From Streptomyces lunaelactis (GTDB taxonomy: Bacteria > Actinomycetota > Actinomycetes > Streptomycetales > Streptomycetaceae), in assembly GCF_003054555.1 (NCBI RefSeq), contig NZ_CP026304.1, positions 7,502,001 to 7,566,000 on the forward strand: 64,000 bases of DNA, given 5' to 3'. Position numbers and translations under genes: made by a program. Below, piece by piece: positions 15,873 to 22,817 of the stretch. The notes below the pieces were generated by a model that was given only the letters and a program-made list of their open reading frames with translations, was not told the origin of the DNA and did not search any database. Position 1 is the stretch's first letter. Each line of letters begins with the position of its first letter.

Positions 15873-16874
15873 CTACGGCCCTTCCCCTCTCGGCTTCTTC
15901 ACGGGCGTCCCGAAGCTGACGGCGTTCTCGGCGCGGGTGCAGGACGAGGCGGTGGCGCGCCGACTGGGGGATGAGCCGGCGAGGCTGACGGGGATCGGCC
16001 TTCCGGCTCCGTACGACGCCTGAGAAGCGGCGGGCACGGCCGGGATCCGCTCCAGGACACCACCCGCGAACACGTCGTACAGCGGCAGCGCCTCCAGATG
16101 GACATAGCCGATATGGCAGTCGCAGACGGCCGACGGGCAGTCGCGCGGACGCAGCGCCCGCCGGTAGGAGCCGTCGTAGAGATTGCCGAGCTCGTCCGGG
16201 ACGAAGTGGCAGCGCCGCACCGTGCCGTCGCCGTCCACCGAGATCACCGACTCGCCCGTCCGGCACGGGAGTCCTGCCGAGCGGTGCGGATCGCGGCTGT
16301 ACGCGAAGAGCGGATCCAGCTCTGTCCACTCGGCTGCCTCGGCGTCGCTGTAGCTGCGTCCCTCGGCCGCGTTCACCCAGAGGTAGACGTGGGCGGGCAG
16401 ATCGGCGCGCAGGCGACGGGCGTCGGCCAGGTGCTCGGGGAACCCCACGACGCCGACGCTGAACCGGACCCCGCGCCCGGACAGGTCACGGCACTTGCCG
16501 AGGAATCGGTCGTACGGGGTCTGGCCCGGGTGGTACGTGCACCAGAGTGCGAGGGTGTCGGGATCGGCGTCCGCGACCCAGCCGGTGCGGCAGCTGAGGT
16601 TCGTCTGGATGGCCACCCGGCGGATGTGCGGCAGCCGGGAGAGCTCGGTGAGGGTGCGGCGGTACCAGGAGCGGACCAGGCCCTCGCCCCACGGCGTGAA
16701 CAGAATCGACAACTGGTCGTCCGTCTGCTCGGACGCCCAGTCGGCGAAGCGTTCGAGCGCGGAACGGTCGGCACGCAGCTGATCGGGGCTGTCGTGCCGC
16801 TTGGCGAAGGGACAGTACGGGCAGTCGTAGTCGCAGGAGGCGAGCGGGCCACGGTAGAGGATCGTCAGGTCCAC
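15873..16874 (-). CDS. STM4011-family radical SAM protein
   Basis: Radical SAM protein of 333 aa. The 4Fe-4S motif is Cys14, Cys18 and Cys21 (CDYDCPYC), unusually close to the N-terminus. A Cys-rich C-terminal half (CRTGE, RRCHF and CPSAVCDCHIGYVH) resembles a SPASM-type auxiliary cluster region and includes a DELGNLYD segment seen in SPASM proteins. The last 60 residues are low in pattern and Ser/Arg-rich. It is last in the five-gene operon, 9 nt after the STM4012 stop. Function is not known; it should generate a 5'-deoxyadenosyl radical to modify a peptide or small molecule. Confidence 0.85.
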   Translation of the reverse strand: MDLTILYRGPLASCDYDCPYCPFAKRHDSPDQLRADRSALERFADWASEQTDDQLSILFTPWGEGLVRSWYRRTLTELSRLPHIRRVAIQTNLSCRTGWVADADPDTLALWCTYHPGQTPYDRFLGKCRDLSGRGVRFSVGVVGFPEHLADARRLRADLPAHVYLWVNAAEGRSYSDAEAAEWTELDPLFAYSRDPHRSAGLPCRTGESVISVDGDGTVRRCHFVPDELGNLYDGSYRRALRPRDCPSAVCDCHIGYVHLEALPLYDVFAGGVLERIPAVPAASQASYGAGRPIPVSLAGSSPSRRATASSCTRAENAVSFGTPVKKPRGEGP

Positions 16875-16883
16875 AGCTGAACC

Positions 16884-18233
16884 TCACTTGAGTTCGTACG
16901 CGGCCATGTCGGCGCGCACGGCGGGGGAGAAGAGTTCGGGGCCCAGAGCGTCCGAGTACGCCAGACCGTCGGCACTCAGCCTCAGCCGGTCGGGCCCGGC
17001 GCTCTCGTCGAGCCAGCCGAGGGAACCGAAATGGTCGAGCTCGGACGGGAAGTCCTCGACCGGGTGGCGGCCGAACCGTTCACGGTATCCGGCCACTTCC
17101 ATGCCCTCGGCCCGGAGGAGTGACTGGAGGAGATGGCGGCGGCGCGCCTCGTCCTCGTCGACCTCGCGTCCCACTTCGGCGCGGCTGAAGTCCTCGGTCG
17201 CCGTGTAGGTGTCGATGATGCCGCGTATCTCGCGCATGTCGACGGCGTAGTCGAAGGAGTAGTGCAGGGTCGAGGTGTAGGAGCGGGCACCGCAGCCGAG
17301 ACCGATCATGCCGTCGGTCTGGCAGGCGTAGTCGTCCGGGCCCTGCGGCGGCGCGTCCGAGCGGCGGAACATCCGCATCGACACCTGCTCGTAGCCGTGC
17401 GAGAGAAGATGGTCGCGGCCCTCGCGGTACAGGCGCAGACGCTGGGCGTCCCAGGCCCGGTCGGCCGTCTCTCCGGCACGGCCGAGCCCGGTCAGCGGAC
17501 GCACATACAGAGGGTAGAGATACAGCTCCTCGGGCTGCCAGGCGAGCGCGGCGTCCAGTGACAGCCGCCAGGTGCGCTCGGTCTGGCCGGCTATGCCGTA
17601 GATGAGATCGATGTTGAGGACGGGTGTGCGGGCGTCGCGGATGCGGGCCAGGGCCGACTCGACATCGGCGCGGCGCTGCGGGCGCACGGCCGCCCTCGCC
17701 TCCTCGTCGACGAAGCTCTGCACGCCGATGCTGAGCCGGGTGGCGCCCCGCTCGACGAGGACGGTGAGCCGGTCGGCGGTGGCGGTGGCGGGGGACGTCT
17801 CGACGGAGAGCGGGACAGCGCGCAGATCGGCGCCCATCCGCTTCTCGGCGATGTCACAGAGCCGGTCCAGCTCCCCGGCGGTGAGGAAGGTGGGGGTGCC
17901 GCCCCCGAACGCGGCCGCGGCGAAACGCACCGGCTCGTCGTCGCCGAGGGCGTCGCGCACGGCGGTCCCCTGGCGGTCGAGCGCGTCGAGATAGCGCGTG
18001 GTGAGCTCGTCGGGCGCGCCGATCCGCGTGAAGAGATTGCAGAAGCCGCAACGGACCTCGCAGAACGGTATGTGGAGATAGAGGGAGAGCGCGTCCTTGC
18101 GTTCCCCCGCCCAGCGCTCGCTCAGCGCGGGCCGTCCGCCCTCCGGGAAGGGCCGGTAGGCCGTCTTGTGCGGATAGGCGTAGACGTAACTCTGGTACGG
18201 GCGCGGTGCGCTGCTCCGAAAACTGCTGCTCAT
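16884..18233 (-). CDS. STM4012-family radical SAM protein (HemN-like)
   Basis: Radical SAM protein of 449 aa resembling the HemN/coproporphyrinogen dehydrogenase class. The cluster motif CEVRCGFC uses Cys58, Cys62 and Cys65 in the family context LYLHIPFC; GGGTP (AAAFGGGTPTF) and SVETSPATATADRL follow as in HemN-like enzymes. A HemN-type C-terminal helical domain is present (about 370-440). The STM4012 family is consistently linked to STM4011/4013/4014/4015 and is not a heme enzyme by context. Its ATG overlaps the STM4013 stop by 4 nt. The reaction is unknown. Confidence 0.87.
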   Translation of the reverse strand: MSSSFRSSAPRPYQSYVYAYPHKTAYRPFPEGGRPALSERWAGERKDALSLYLHIPFCEVRCGFCNLFTRIGAPDELTTRYLDALDRQGTAVRDALGDDEPVRFAAAAFGGGTPTFLTAGELDRLCDIAEKRMGADLRAVPLSVETSPATATADRLTVLVERGATRLSIGVQSFVDEEARAAVRPQRRADVESALARIRDARTPVLNIDLIYGIAGQTERTWRLSLDAALAWQPEELYLYPLYVRPLTGLGRAGETADRAWDAQRLRLYREGRDHLLSHGYEQVSMRMFRRSDAPPQGPDDYACQTDGMIGLGCGARSYTSTLHYSFDYAVDMREIRGIIDTYTATEDFSRAEVGREVDEDEARRRHLLQSLLRAEGMEVAGYRERFGRHPVEDFPSELDHFGSLGWLDESAGPDRLRLSADGLAYSDALGPELFSPAVRADMAAYELK

Positions 18234-19117
18234 GCTGCGGCCTCGAGGAAGAAGTGGGCGTACGGAACCGTCCAGACCACGTCATGGCCGAGCCGGTGGC
18301 CGGTGAAGCCGTCGTCCCCGTACGCCGTGCCATGGTCGGAGCAGACGATCGCGAAGCAGCGGCGCCGGCCGCTCGCGGCGGCGAAGAGCCGCCCGATGTG
18401 CCGGTCGACGTACTCAAGTGCGGCAGCGTGCGTCTCGCGCGAATCACCAGCGTCCCGGGTGGCGCCGGGTAGGTGGAACCAGTTCGGCTGGTGCAGCGAT
18501 GGCACGTTGACGAACAGGAACAGCCGCTGGTCGTACGGGAGTCCGGCGACGACCTTCTCGGCCAGGTCCACCTGGCCCTCGAACGAGGTGGGTGACGCCA
18601 CCCCGAACTCCGGCTCCCAGTGGCTCTCCTGGAACATTCCCGGCAGTACGGAGCCGAGCGGTCCCAGCTTGTTGAAGAACCCGACTCCGCCGATGCACAC
18701 CGTGCGGTATCCGGCGTCCGCGAGACCCGAGACAAGGTCCGGGGTGTCGAAGACGAAGGTACGGGCCGCGGTGGTCTCACTGCCCGCGAAGCGTGCGGCG
18801 AACAGCCGTGGATGCGGCCCCGGTGCGGCCGGAGTGGGCAGGAAGCCGGCGAAAATCGCCTGGTGGGAGGCGTAGGTGAAACTGCCCGGAGCGTGCCGCT
18901 TCTCCCAGACCCCGCCGGGCAGATGGCGGGCGAGATTCGGGATCCGGCCCGCGGCGGCGAGCTCGGCGGCGACGTCGAAGCGCAGTGTGTCGAGAGTGAC
19001 GAGCAGCAGGTCGTCGCGGCCGACGACCTCGGTCATGTCGGGGGTGGCGGGGGTGGTCGGGATGTCGCGGGTGGCCGGCCCGTCCTGGCGTGCGGGACTG
19101 TCAGGCGCTTGCACCAT
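18230..19117 (-). CDS. STM4013/SEN3800-family hydrolase (alkaline phosphatase fold)
   Basis: Alkaline-phosphatase/sulfatase-superfamily hydrolase of 295 aa. Metal-binding segments are LLVTLDTLRFD at the N-terminal strand and CSDHGTAYGDDGF with a following His (GHRLGH). The expected nucleophile region reads SFTYASHQAIFAGF, so Thr or Ser, not the Cys that becomes formylglycine in true sulfatases; a phospho- or ester-hydrolase role is more likely. ATG 19117 is chosen for its AAGGAACC ribosome site, giving a 17-nt overlap with the STM4014 gene; an internal ATG at 19036 is possible. It lies between the ATP-grasp and radical SAM genes. Confidence 0.85.
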   Translation of the reverse strand: MVQAPDSPARQDGPATRDIPTTPATPDMTEVVGRDDLLLVTLDTLRFDVAAELAAAGRIPNLARHLPGGVWEKRHAPGSFTYASHQAIFAGFLPTPAAPGPHPRLFAARFAGSETTAARTFVFDTPDLVSGLADAGYRTVCIGGVGFFNKLGPLGSVLPGMFQESHWEPEFGVASPTSFEGQVDLAEKVVAGLPYDQRLFLFVNVPSLHQPNWFHLPGATRDAGDSRETHAAALEYVDRHIGRLFAAASGRRRCFAIVCSDHGTAYGDDGFTGHRLGHDVVWTVPYAHFFLEAAA

Positions 19118-20255
19118 GGCGGTTCCTTGCTCTCCGTAGTACAGCGGCGACCTGCGCCGCGTAGGTGTCCTGGCCCTCGGCGCCGCTGCCCGGGAGGCCG
19201 GTGAGGCGCGGCAGGAGATCCCCGAAGGCGTTGACCTCGCCGACGGCGAAGCGCCGCCACCCGGTGGCGGGCAGCAGATCGACGCCCACCCGCAGGGCCC
19301 CGGGGAAGCAGGCCGCGGCCCGCTCGCACAGGTCGAGCATGCCGGCCCAGCTGCCGCCGGCTGCTTCGGTGGCCGCTCGTGCCGCCGCGAGGTCTCCCCG
19401 GCTGCCGCCGAGGTGGAGATTGGTGATGGGGGAGCGGCTCGTCCTGACGACGGCGTGGGTGGCGCGGCCCCCGATGACGACGACCCGCAGATCCGCGGAA
19501 CGGCCGTTCTGCGAGGCCTTGGGCAGCCAGCGCTCGATGTGCAGACCGTCCGGCGCCAGGGCATCGATGAGTGCGCCGACTTCCGACTCGGTTGAATAGC
19601 GGTGAACCCGCAGGGAGTTGAAGAGTCGGCCGTCGGCGTCACGCTCGACCGAGGTGGTGGCCTGCACGCGGCCCCGGCCCGCCGTCTCCACGGCGAGCAC
19701 GCCGGAGGCCGACGAGCCGTGCGCCGGCTTGACGAACATCCGGTGAAGACCGCTCAGCTCCTGCAGCGCACGGACGTCGTCCCAGCCGCGCACGGCGGGG
19801 ACGTCGGCACCGGACGTGGGCGACTGTGGCACAGTCACCCCGGTCTGGCGCAGCACGCCATGGCACAGCCGCTTGTCGAACAGCACCGCGAGCTCGTGCG
19901 GATCATCCAGCAACGTCGCCCCGCCGACCACCGCCAGGCCTTCCACCTCCCGCACGGCGGAAGTGAAGCGCGCGTACCAGCGGGCTGTCCCCTCCACCCG
20001 GGTCGGGTCGTCCGTACCGCGCAACTCCCGCTCCACCAGGGGGTCCTCGCCGGGCGAGTCGATCCGCACCTGCTCGCCCGGCCGGAACTCCGCCCGCCCG
20101 CGCAGCACGTCGAGCCAGGGCACAACGCGGGCCACGGGCAGCCCTGCGGCGTGCACCGCATCCTGGAAGAGCGCGACGCGGCGGTTGGCCGGATTGCCGA
20201 CGACGGCGAGACGGAGGTCTGTTCCAAGGCCCGGGAGGTCCCGCATCCCGGTCAT
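19101..20255 (-). CDS. STM4014-family protein (ATP-grasp-like)
   Basis: Protein of 384 aa matching the STM4014 family. It has a Rossmann-like N-terminal part (RLAVVGNPANRR), then a region resembling ATP-grasp ligases: FDKRLCHGVL, the Lys of MFVKPAHGSSASGV, and the late GVDLLPATGWRRFAVGEVNAFGD with acidic and Asn residues typical of Mg-ATP binding. ATP-grasp enzymes join carboxylates to amines via acyl phosphates, so this may be the bond-forming partner of the radical SAM pair. It overlaps the STM4015 stop by 4 nt. No substrate is known. Confidence 0.83.
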   Translation of the reverse strand: MTGMRDLPGLGTDLRLAVVGNPANRRVALFQDAVHAAGLPVARVVPWLDVLRGRAEFRPGEQVRIDSPGEDPLVERELRGTDDPTRVEGTARWYARFTSAVREVEGLAVVGGATLLDDPHELAVLFDKRLCHGVLRQTGVTVPQSPTSGADVPAVRGWDDVRALQELSGLHRMFVKPAHGSSASGVLAVETAGRGRVQATTSVERDADGRLFNSLRVHRYSTESEVGALIDALAPDGLHIERWLPKASQNGRSADLRVVVIGGRATHAVVRTSRSPITNLHLGGSRGDLAAARAATEAAGGSWAGMLDLCERAAACFPGALRVGVDLLPATGWRRFAVGEVNAFGDLLPRLTGLPGSGAEGQDTYAAQVAAVLRRARNRHGASA

Positions 20256-21205
20256 TCCGCGACAGAGGTATAGCGGTCTTCCCGGCCTTCGGAGTCCCGC
20301 TCCGCAGCCTGGCCCTCGGAGAGGTCGATCTCCACGCCCGTGGCTTCGAAGGTCTTGGTCAGCCGCTGCACCATCGGCTCGCTGAGGAAGTGATGGTGGA
20401 GGTCGAGCTTCTCCAGATGAGTCAGCGGCTGTCCGTTCAGCAGGGCTTCCGCTCCCTCATCGCCAAGGGTGCCCATCGACAGATCCAGCGTGCTGAGACG
20501 GGGGACGACCGGCGCGCCGGAGAGCGCGACGGCTATCTGGTCCTGGATCTCGCTGTTGCGCAGGGCCAGAGACCGCAGACGAGGAAGGCGGACGCCGGTC
20601 AGGATGGGCTCCAGGTCCGACACCTCGGCGTTCGCTCCGTACCAGGAGGTGCCGAGCCATACGTCGAGATGCTCCAGCGCGGGCAGGTCGCTGGCAGCGA
20701 TGCCGCGCACGACCTGCGCGTCGAGCCCGCCCGCCTCGACGGTCAGCGAGCGGAGCTTGTCGTGCCGTACGGCGGGGAACTCCAGCTCCTGGCCGCCGCG
20801 TACCCCGAATTCCAGCAGTTCGGGGAAGGCGTCGAGCAGCGGCGTCACCAGCCCCTGGTTGATCCAGGAGATCTCGCACTCCTCAAAGGTGATGTCACCG
20901 AGGAAGATTGCCCGCAGGCCGGGCAACTGCTCCTTCGCGTCGAGCAGGGCGGTGATCACGGCGTCGGGCGGCGAGTCGTACACATCGCTCCACGCCCCGA
21001 CAACCAGCGCCCGCACCTCGGTGGTGTCCACCGCAGCGAGGAAGCGGGCGAGCGCTTCCTCCCACGCCTCACCGCTCTCGTACGCCTCGACGGCAATCCG
21101 CCAGGCCACGGAGGCAGCTTGGGGCAGCTCGGCCTTCGACTCGGCGTCGGGGAAGTCGAACACGGGCAGGCCGTGCAGCTCCTGCAGATGGTCCGAAATG
21201 GTCAT
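20252..21205 (-). CDS. STM4015-family leucine-rich-repeat protein
   Basis: First gene of the operon, 317 aa. The N-terminal 130 residues are helical and acidic. The rest shows leucine-rich-repeat periodicity, for example LPALEHLDVWLG, LPRLRSLALRNSEI, VPRLSTLDLSMGTLGDEG and LTHLEKLDLHHHFLSEP, each about 25-30 residues apart. The C-terminal tail is charged. LRR proteins usually bind other proteins, so it may be a scaffold or substrate-recognition subunit for the enzymes downstream. ATG 21205 is chosen at the start of the MTISDHLQ consensus. A divergent promoter region of 192 nt separates it from the gene at 21398. Confidence 0.85.
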   Translation of the reverse strand: MTISDHLQELHGLPVFDFPDAESKAELPQAASVAWRIAVEAYESGEAWEEALARFLAAVDTTEVRALVVGAWSDVYDSPPDAVITALLDAKEQLPGLRAIFLGDITFEECEISWINQGLVTPLLDAFPELLEFGVRGGQELEFPAVRHDKLRSLTVEAGGLDAQVVRGIAASDLPALEHLDVWLGTSWYGANAEVSDLEPILTGVRLPRLRSLALRNSEIQDQIAVALSGAPVVPRLSTLDLSMGTLGDEGAEALLNGQPLTHLEKLDLHHHFLSEPMVQRLTKTFEATGVEIDLSEGQAAERDSEGREDRYTSVAE

Positions 21206-21397: not shown

Positions 21398-21724
21398 ATG
21401 TACCGGCAGGGAGACGTGCTCATCGTGCCCATCACGGACGAAGCCGTGCCGTCGCATGCCGTGGACGCGCCGAGTGAGGCAAGGGATGCCCGGGGGCGTC
21501 TGGTACTCGCGCTGGGTGAGGTCACGGGTCACGCGCACGCCGTGACCGGCCCGGGCCGACTGGTGTGCGAGCCGGGCCCGTTCGGCCCGATGCTTCTGCA
21601 TCTGCCCGAAGGCGGCCGGGTGGTGCACGAGGAGCATGCGGCCATACCGCTGACGAAGGGCTGGTACCGCGTGGTGCGGCAGCGAGAGTACCTGCCGGGC
21701 GCGGTCCGCATCGTCGCCGACTGA
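21398..21724 (+). CDS. conserved small protein, phage-type MYRQGDV family
   Basis: 108-aa protein of predicted beta-rich fold: YRQGDVLIVPI, LALGEVTGHAHAV, RVVHEEHAAIPLTKGWYRVVRQREY. I recall very similar proteins (RQGDVL, GEVTGHAHA, HEEHAPI, YRVVRQREY) in phages and in bacterial neighbourhoods next to DUF6745 proteins; the His-rich conserved segments could bind metal. GAGAGGAGAG gives a strong ribosome site before ATG 21398. The gene is 58 nt upstream of the DUF6745 gene and divergent from the STM4015 operon. Function unknown. Confidence 0.75.
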   Translation: MYRQGDVLIVPITDEAVPSHAVDAPSEARDARGRLVLALGEVTGHAHAVTGPGRLVCEPGPFGPMLLHLPEGGRVVHEEHAAIPLTKGWYRVVRQREYLPGAVRIVAD

Positions 21725-21782: not shown

Positions 21783-22817
21783 ATGCAGTACGTGGACAAG
21801 TGGCGGGCCGTTGCGGCGGCGACCGGACCGGCGGACCGGGCCGCCGCCGAGGAAGGCGTGTGTCTCGCCTACCGCACGGCAGGGCTCGCCGAGCCGGAGC
21901 GGATCGTGTGGGCGGACTCTCCGCGGGCGGCCGTTGCCGTCGTCCGCTCGCTCGACGACCCCGGGCGCTCGGTGCGCGACGAGGTGCGCACCCGCGCGTG
22001 GGCGGAGGAACGCCGCCGTATCCACGACGAGTTGGGGCCGACCGGCTGGGCCGAGCTGTGGAGCCTCACCGGCGCCCGGCTCTGGGACACCACGCGGGCA
22101 CTGGCCGAGCGGATACGGACGGGGGTGGTGGACGCGCCGGCCGTTCAGGACACGGCGGACACGGCGGACACCAGCGACGTGACGGCGAGGGAGACGGAGA
22201 TCCGGCTGACCTTGCTCGACGCGGTGCTCGGCCAGCACGACGCGGCCTGGCTCTGCGCGTTCGACGGCCGTAGCGACCGGCTCCAGGGGCTCGCCACGGT
22301 CGCCGCGCACGCAGGCTGGTGGTGGCCGTACGAGAAGTCGGTGGTGATCTGCGAGCGGCCGGCGGAGCTCCACCGGGACGAGGCCGGCAGGCTCGACAGG
22401 GGCGACGGTCCGGCTCTGGAATTCCCCGACGGCTTCGCCCTGTACGCATGGCGTGGCATGCCGGTGCCCGCGGACTTCCTCGGCGGACTGACCTCGCTCA
22501 CCCCGCAGCGCATACGCAGCGAGGAGAACGCCGAGCTGCGCCGCGTGATGCTCGAGTACTACGGCTACGACCGCTATCTCGCCGAGTCGGAAGCCCAGCC
22601 TGTGCATCGCGACGAGACAGGCATCCTCTGGCGGATCGCGCTGGACGACGACGAGGACGTGGCGATGGTCGAAGTGGTCAACTCCACCCCCGAGCCGGAC
22701 GGCAGCCACCGTACCTATTGGCTGCGGGTGCCGCCCACGACCCGGACGGCGAAGGAGGGCGTCGCCTGGACCTTCGGGCTGCAGGCCGAGGCGTACGAAC
22801 CGGTGCGTCAGACCTGA
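21783..22817 (+). CDS. DUF6745-domain protein
   Basis: 344-aa soluble protein. The N-terminal half is helical (AWAEERRRIHDELGPTGWAELW); the C-terminal half carries the pattern shared by DUF6745 proteins: GWWWPYEKSVVICERP, HRDEAGRLDRGDGPAL, FPDGFALYAWRGMPVP and the tail RTYWLRVPP. Paralogues of this family tend to co-occur with LRR proteins, matching the neighbouring STM4015 gene. ATG 21783 follows AGCAGGGGACGGG. Its end overlaps the convergent PfkB gene by 10 nt. Function is unknown; a DTADTADT repeat near residues 122-129 is probably a flexible loop. Confidence 0.82.
   Translation: MQYVDKWRAVAAATGPADRAAAEEGVCLAYRTAGLAEPERIVWADSPRAAVAVVRSLDDPGRSVRDEVRTRAWAEERRRIHDELGPTGWAELWSLTGARLWDTTRALAERIRTGVVDAPAVQDTADTADTSDVTARETEIRLTLLDAVLGQHDAAWLCAFDGRSDRLQGLATVAAHAGWWWPYEKSVVICERPAELHRDEAGRLDRGDGPALEFPDGFALYAWRGMPVPADFLGGLTSLTPQRIRSEENAELRRVMLEYYGYDRYLAESEAQPVHRDETGILWRIALDDDEDVAMVEVVNSTPEPDGSHRTYWLRVPPTTRTAKEGVAWTFGLQAEAYEPVRQT

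Follow-up and report, generated by a model that had tools for sequence, protein, structure and literature searches.

The 64-kb stretch of Streptomyces lunaelactis DNA analyzed here (the window) carries five minus-strand open reading frames (ORFs) at 15873-21205, identified from the ORF list and the sequence and lying in the order STM4015-4014-4013-4012-4011. The new point is that the terminal Glu of STM4015, a leucine-rich repeat (LRR) protein, is probably the reaction site of this gene set. Judging from sequence comparisons, we consider it rather probable that the ATP-grasp protein STM4014 ligates a group to this residue. The five families bear placeholder names only, though many bacteria of soil and gut, as well as Salmonella, carry them. 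All five window proteins exceeded their NCBIfam cut-offs, confirming the genes and family assignments of a preliminary description of this DNA:

20252-21205, minus strand: STM4015 family LRR protein, 317 amino acids (aa), proposed carrier or substrate (NCBIfam 390.9 bits, cut-off 275)
20255-20275, minus strand: C-terminal heptapeptide RYTSVAE of STM4015 (terminal Glu codon GAA at 20255-20257, stop at 20252-20254)
19101-20255, minus strand: STM4014 family ATP-grasp ligase, LysX/RimK-like (NCBIfam NF038074, 447.4 bits, cut-off 175; best PDB profile matches RimK and LysX)
18230-19117 as ORF, start fitting relatives at 19036, minus strand: STM4013 family alkaline-phosphatase-fold hydrolase (NCBIfam NF038075, 420.8 bits, cut-off 250; Pfam Sulfatase)
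16884-18233, minus strand: STM4012 family HemN-like radical S-adenosylmethionine (SAM) protein (NCBIfam NF006067, 634.8 bits, cut-off 380)
15873-16874, minus strand: STM4011 family radical SAM protein with conserved C-terminal cysteines (NCBIfam NF038073, 415 bits, cut-off 200)

The 4-nt overlaps (4015/4014 and 4013/4012) and the 9-nt gap (4012/4011) described previously were found again. The 17-nt overlap reported for 4014/4013 presupposes the ATG at 19117 as the start of STM4013, which relatives do not support; the ATG at 19036 lines up with relatives and leaves a 64-nt gap to STM4014. The nearest relatives of the window are from Streptomyces.

Nearly all STM4015 proteins end in Glu

The C termini of STM4015 proteins were compared. 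Glu was the last residue in 116 of 118 distinct tails and in 42 of 43 clusters at 60% identity. The tail logo of these 42 clusters reads R-Y-(V/I/T)-A-V-(S/G)-E, with Tyr at position -6 in 34 of them, and positions -25 to -8 are 39% acidic, compared with 14% in the body of the protein. No Cys was invariant or nearly invariant in 31 aligned rows, and the fold is that of an LRR protein. In a larger locus set, 152 of 155 LRR proteins scoring above 120 bits ended in Glu; the three exceptions were two broken frames and one copy (locus L025) extending four residues further.

The terminal Glu tracks STM4014 and not the LRR fold, because it is kept across divergent LRR parts and is rare in control LRR ORFs. 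Every distinct LRR protein adjoining STM4014 ended in Glu (115/115). Seven STM4014-adjoining proteins, with very divergent LRR parts, scored below 66 bits with the STM4015 profile, and all seven ended in Glu; the one of them that was scanned (L019) is a WGR plus LRR protein. Because the STM4015 profile had been built from Glu-ending sequences, selection by position is the fairer test. In a second class of bacteria, that of a Gemmata metagenome-assembled genome (MAG), the ORF upstream of STM4014 was picked by position and LRR motif regardless of its tail, and 29 of 29 ended in Glu, with tails including GDYE, GDPE, GDIE, LHAE and VHGE, which are without the Arg-Tyr. Other LRR ORFs matched by the same profile in four genomes were used as a control, and 1 of 19 ended in Glu, indicating that Glu is not a general LRR property; an additional control ORF (L121) without terminal Glu would make this 1 of 20. 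STM4011-4014 proteins ended in Glu in 7 of 367 cases. An ATGA overlap with the next gene as the origin of the Glu was also rejected, since the residue is present in 64 copies that overlap that gene, 56 that are spaced from it and 7 that stand alone. In L018 and L019, LRR proteins that resemble STM4015 but carry a WGR domain at the N terminus replace or accompany STM4015, and their tails still end in Glu.

Copy number was counted in 88 loci, comprising the window, seven plasmid records and 80 genome loci (the best 80 of at least 538 confirmed, ranked by likeness to Methylobacterium STM4011). STM4015 was single in 47 loci, present twice in 31, four times in one and six times in one, and lone copies occurred elsewhere in the genome in two of ten cluster genomes. 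The multiplied and lone copies all ended in Glu. In Actinomadura rifamycini (L049:928-6747), six STM4015 copies stand in tandem, every one ending in Glu.

STM4014 is related to LysX and RimK

STM4014 is kin to LysX and RimK. In a structural comparison its nine best matches were all ArgX/LysX or RimK, the best being ArgX bound to LysW, and the fold and catalytic pattern (DxR ... R ... TN ... D ... ExN) of the RimK/LysX-like ATP-grasp superfamily are present. The GSWGR motif of LysX/ArgX is absent, the aligned segment in the window being HGSSASG.

The five genes act as one unit

The distribution of the five families was determined in a class sample of 98 genomes, including S. lunaelactis itself, with a family counted when above its cut-off. 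Each family was present in 10 of the 98, the same ten genomes every time. Chance association was rejected because the genome sets are identical, and the independent distribution that, according to the preliminary description, would refute it was not found. A second class sample (248 genomes, the class of the Gemmata MAG) was searched for STM4014, STM4011 and STM4013. STM4014 was found in 33 genomes, of which 31 also held STM4011 and 30 STM4013, as nested sets; two of the 33 (G115 and G244) hold a partial STM4014 only and another (G218) has no STM4013 match. The association is not merely physical, because in G126 about 0.9 Mb separates the ligase gene from STM4011, and each of the three genes of G275 lies on a contig of its own.

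All five genes were present in 78 of the 88 loci, in the order 4015-4014-4013-4012-4011 in 72. According to record titles, the loci span nine phyla (Actinomycetota, Pseudomonadota, Bacteroidota, Deinococcota, Bacillota, Chloroflexota, Myxococcota, Planctomycetota and Acidobacteriota). Seven genomes missed STM4014 from the locus; five of them carry it elsewhere, and it was found nowhere in one fragmentary MAG and one Cytophagales MAG (L044, genome G099). In the latter, STM4011 and STM4012 look intact, STM4015 and STM4013 are in pieces and STM4014 gave no match, possibly a decaying gene set. Taken together, the five genes act as one unit, in line with the preliminary description.

The 4.9-kb set of Salmonella had no near match in Escherichia coli genomes by megablast. 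A phage origin was rejected, since STM4011 had only three weak relatives (23-31%) among viral contigs. In a PADLOC scan of seven proteins for anti-phage defense systems, only STM4012 matched one model, weakly (PDC-M51A, 3.7e-6, 90 residues). The literature searched yielded no function for the five families, in agreement with the preliminary description; in the parts consulted of PMC2784778 and PMC3844500, STM4015 and STM4013 appear only as table entries.

Radical SAM enzymes and hydrolase

Both radical SAM Cys motifs are intact, as previously described. In STM4011 the CX3CX2C motif and five further downstream Cys are invariant in 8 aligned rows, and the sole PDB profile match is SkfB (6efn, residues 319-395, E 2.1e-4). 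STM4012 matched HemN (1olt, 2.6e-59) and the methyltransferase NocN (9p2u, 3e-37). Its CX3CX2C motif is invariant in 22 rows, as is a Leu two positions after the third Cys, where HemN has Cys. A heme role was considered and set aside: HemN is the best PDB profile match, yet STM4012 reached 124.4 bits with NCBIfam hemN, whose cut-off is 324.95. STM4012 may nevertheless have a heme-related role. In one genome (G057, L100:9118-10557), an STM4012-like radical SAM protein was found at 262.8 bits, under the cut-off, and the other four families were not above cut-off there.

STM4013 shows an alkaline-phosphatase-type pattern, and its PDB profile matches are sulfatases and nucleotide phosphodiesterases. 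Thr54, which by the superfamily pattern we take to be the nucleophile position, is invariant in 22 of 22 rows. Formylglycine sulfatases have Cys or Ser at this position, and the lack of the sulfatase Cys was rightly noted before. A second STM4013 paralogue (338.7 bits, above cut-off) was seen at L098:8198-11691 (G000:C1, about 3155200-3158700) beside radical SAM, thymidylate-kinase-like and NUDIX genes, and the paralogue and NUDIX were found together again in L099.

Neighboring genes

A divergent gene pair next to the cluster, absent from the preliminary description, recurs in many loci:

21398-21724, plus strand: 108-aa protein, no Pfam family, GEVTGHAH motif, divergent partner (phrog_27831; 51 of 88 loci)
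21783-22817, plus strand: DUF6745 protein, divergent partner (Pfam PF20530, 390.9 bits; 51 of 88 loci)

The two genes occur together in 50 of 88 loci, and within the class sample five of the ten genomes with the cluster had a strong DUF6745 match. The 108-aa protein is His-rich, and all 42 of its distinct tails have Asp as the last residue; DUF6745 ends in Thr in 46 of 50. The pair forms a second module beside the cluster. Its relatives were seen in nine Microcystis/cyanophage records and two Edwardsiella phage records.

Recurrent partners were sought in a flank screen (ORFs of at least 80 aa, E 1e-8). No constant extra partner was found in this screen; only general families (ABC, HTH, peptidase and others) were shared by at least three lineage groups. 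The screen missed a HAD hydrolase, which came from inspecting the loci: Chitinophaga and Flammeovirga have it between 4014 and 4013, Salmonella has it behind 4011, and in Bacteroides it forms a fusion with 4011. Because it sits at three different positions, a phosphate-related step is suggested. Three myxobacterial/deltaproteobacterial loci (L021:5658-6812, L033 and L034) have a membrane-type protein between STM4014 and STM4013, which in L021 matches Pfam GIDE, E3 ubiquitin ligase.

Proposed pathway and alternative explanations

From these comparisons we infer a pathway, including its ligation step, the order of steps, the roles of the later enzymes and the kind of product, and we hold the model as a whole with moderate confidence. 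STM4014 would activate the carboxylate of the C-terminal Glu of STM4015 using ATP-grasp chemistry, and the activated Glu would then be coupled to an amine, for which an amino acid, through its amino group, is the likeliest candidate. As the carrier, STM4015 would use its folded part together with the acidic stretch that precedes the tail to present the attached group to STM4011 and STM4012, and this radical SAM pair would remodel the group. STM4013, in some lineages together with the HAD phosphatase, would remove or transfer a phosphate-type group. In the end, the carrier could release a small molecule, or the end of STM4015 could stay permanently modified. STM4015 probably carries the reaction site, and is more likely a substrate or carrier than a target selector because it itself ends in a near-invariant Glu.

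Several observations weigh against this pathway. Kinship in fold and profile leaves the reaction of STM4014 unfixed. DcsG and glutathione synthetase come next in the structural comparison, within 2.3 Z units, and STM4014 lies far below the NCBIfam cut-offs of rimK_fam (23.3 vs 143.4 bits) and LysX_arch (16.5 vs 275.6 bits). In the L025 copy the readable frame continues four residues beyond the Glu (tail AVSEYLQD). The Fisher p of 1.2e-5 for Glu tails of the divergent STM4014 neighbors versus other LRR ORFs overstates independence, because all seven divergent cases belong to a single STM4014 clade. Tail and ligase are also encoded side by side, so that shared history alone could link tail type to ligase clade. 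Moreover, the Glu could have a structural role, because the tail is ordered in the predicted STM4015 structure (pLDDT 83, a predicted local distance difference test score, over the last seven residues) and the solved relative 2ra8 aligns as far as the last residue of the model. Finally, the flank screen showed neither a protease nor a transporter nor any other recurrent enzyme for release next to the cluster.

The alternative that survives best, although we regard it as unlikely, is that the LRR proteins are themselves the end product. The ligation would be the same, but a group made by the radical SAM enzymes would be put on the C terminus, the LRR surfaces would guide it to targets, and no small molecule would be released. 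The Glu-ended tandem copies counted above, the lone copies in two of ten cluster genomes and the failure to see a release enzyme in the flanks are consistent with this, whereas the single STM4015 copy of 47 of 88 loci would suffice for a carrier.

It appears less probable still that the Glu is a structural or recognition signal, for example closing the LRR domain or binding a partner, with STM4014 acting elsewhere. The ordered tail and its presence in solved 2ra8, whose construct runs eight residues past the Glu, would fit such a signal. However, the Glu persists where the LRR part is nearly unrecognizable (7/7 below 66 bits), yet occurs in only 1 of 19 other LRR proteins.

An improbable explanation is that the pathway resembles that of a ribosomally synthesized and post-translationally modified peptide (RiPP): the conserved tail would be a core peptide that follows a large folded leader, and the ligase and the radical SAM pair would crosslink or cyclize it. 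SkfB, the one PDB profile match of STM4011, is a peptide-modifying radical SAM enzyme, and the tail is conserved, with its Tyr at -6 in most clusters. On the other hand, the second-class tails GDYE, GDPE, LHAE and VHGE have only Glu in common, lack the Tyr and offer no constant partner side chain, and the flank screen showed no protease. A pyrroloquinoline quinone (PQQ)-like Tyr-Glu crosslink in the tail was judged less likely because Tyr is absent from several of these tails. A separate short precursor peptide, which the preliminary description had suggested looking for, had no candidate in the window ORF list (ORFs of at least 50 aa).

Equally improbable is the reading of the preliminary description, an LRR adaptor picking an external target that the ATP-grasp and radical SAM enzymes modify. 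In its favor, protein binding is common among LRR folds and 33 of 88 loci have several LRR copies. This reading does not, however, predict a near-invariant Glu following STM4014 across LRR architectures, and the flank screen gave no gene of constant company as a target. Of the modification pathway proposed there, the amide-type bond agrees with the grouping of STM4014 with amide-type-bond ligases, and the choice of an external target by the LRR part has no supporting signal.

Comparison with known systems

As described in parts of PMC10433800 and PMC10092738, LysX/ArgX and RimK ligate amino acids to a protein C terminus, LysX/ArgX to a terminal Glu. LysW/ArgW are carriers with an acidic tail, whose C-terminal Glu accepts an amino acid through an ATP-grasp ligase (parts of PMC10433800 and PMC9303977). 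STM4015 likewise has a terminal Glu and an acidic stretch, and the best structural match of its ligase is ArgX bound to LysW. However, STM4015 is a 317-aa LRR protein and not a small zinc protein with three to four conserved Cys, it has no EDWGE (window tail RYTSVAE, logo R-Y-V-A-V-S-E), STM4014 has GSSASG where LysX/ArgX have GSWGR, and the later enzymes are radical SAM and phosphatase-fold proteins instead of the LysZ/Y/J/K set. The proposed role of STM4015 would resemble that of the LysW amino-group carrier, and STM4015 is not, by these comparisons, a LysW family member. Glutamylation of RpsF (S6) by RimK, as outlined in part of PMC10092738, also uses a related ligase and a protein C-terminus acceptor, but STM4014 is far under the RimK cut-off, the acceptor here would be an LRR protein, and four further genes travel along.

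A solved member of the STM4015 family is 2RA8 (Bacteroides fragilis Q64V53), a structural-genomics entry that matches the Bacteroides STM4015 of L011 with E 2.1e-176. It was deposited as uncharacterized, and no paper naming it was found in the literature searched. Its sequence ends in PMITE followed by eight extra residues; C-terminal tags, as probably in this construct, would hide the proposed reactive end of STM4015.

The terminal-Glu rule gives this orphan cluster a biochemical hypothesis that can be tested, involving one ligase, one acceptor atom and one mass measurement. We tentatively propose, with the case for it nearly balancing the case against, a new class of carrier protein, distributed over nine or more phyla, in which the C-terminal Glu of an LRR protein would be the covalent attachment point and a radical SAM pair would build or modify a group there; the LRR body would be interchangeable, the chemical end fixed. 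Pearlin (PEARL) pathways, which make amino acids on a carrier peptide, also build on a C-terminal carrier residue, one of them with a radical SAM step (part of PMC9303977). In those pathways a short peptide receives the residue from aminoacyl-tRNA (part of PMC9016710), whereas here an ATP-grasp enzyme and a folded LRR protein would be used. If true, this would bring radical chemistry to the few pathways that act on a protein C-terminal carrier residue and would show where to look for the product.
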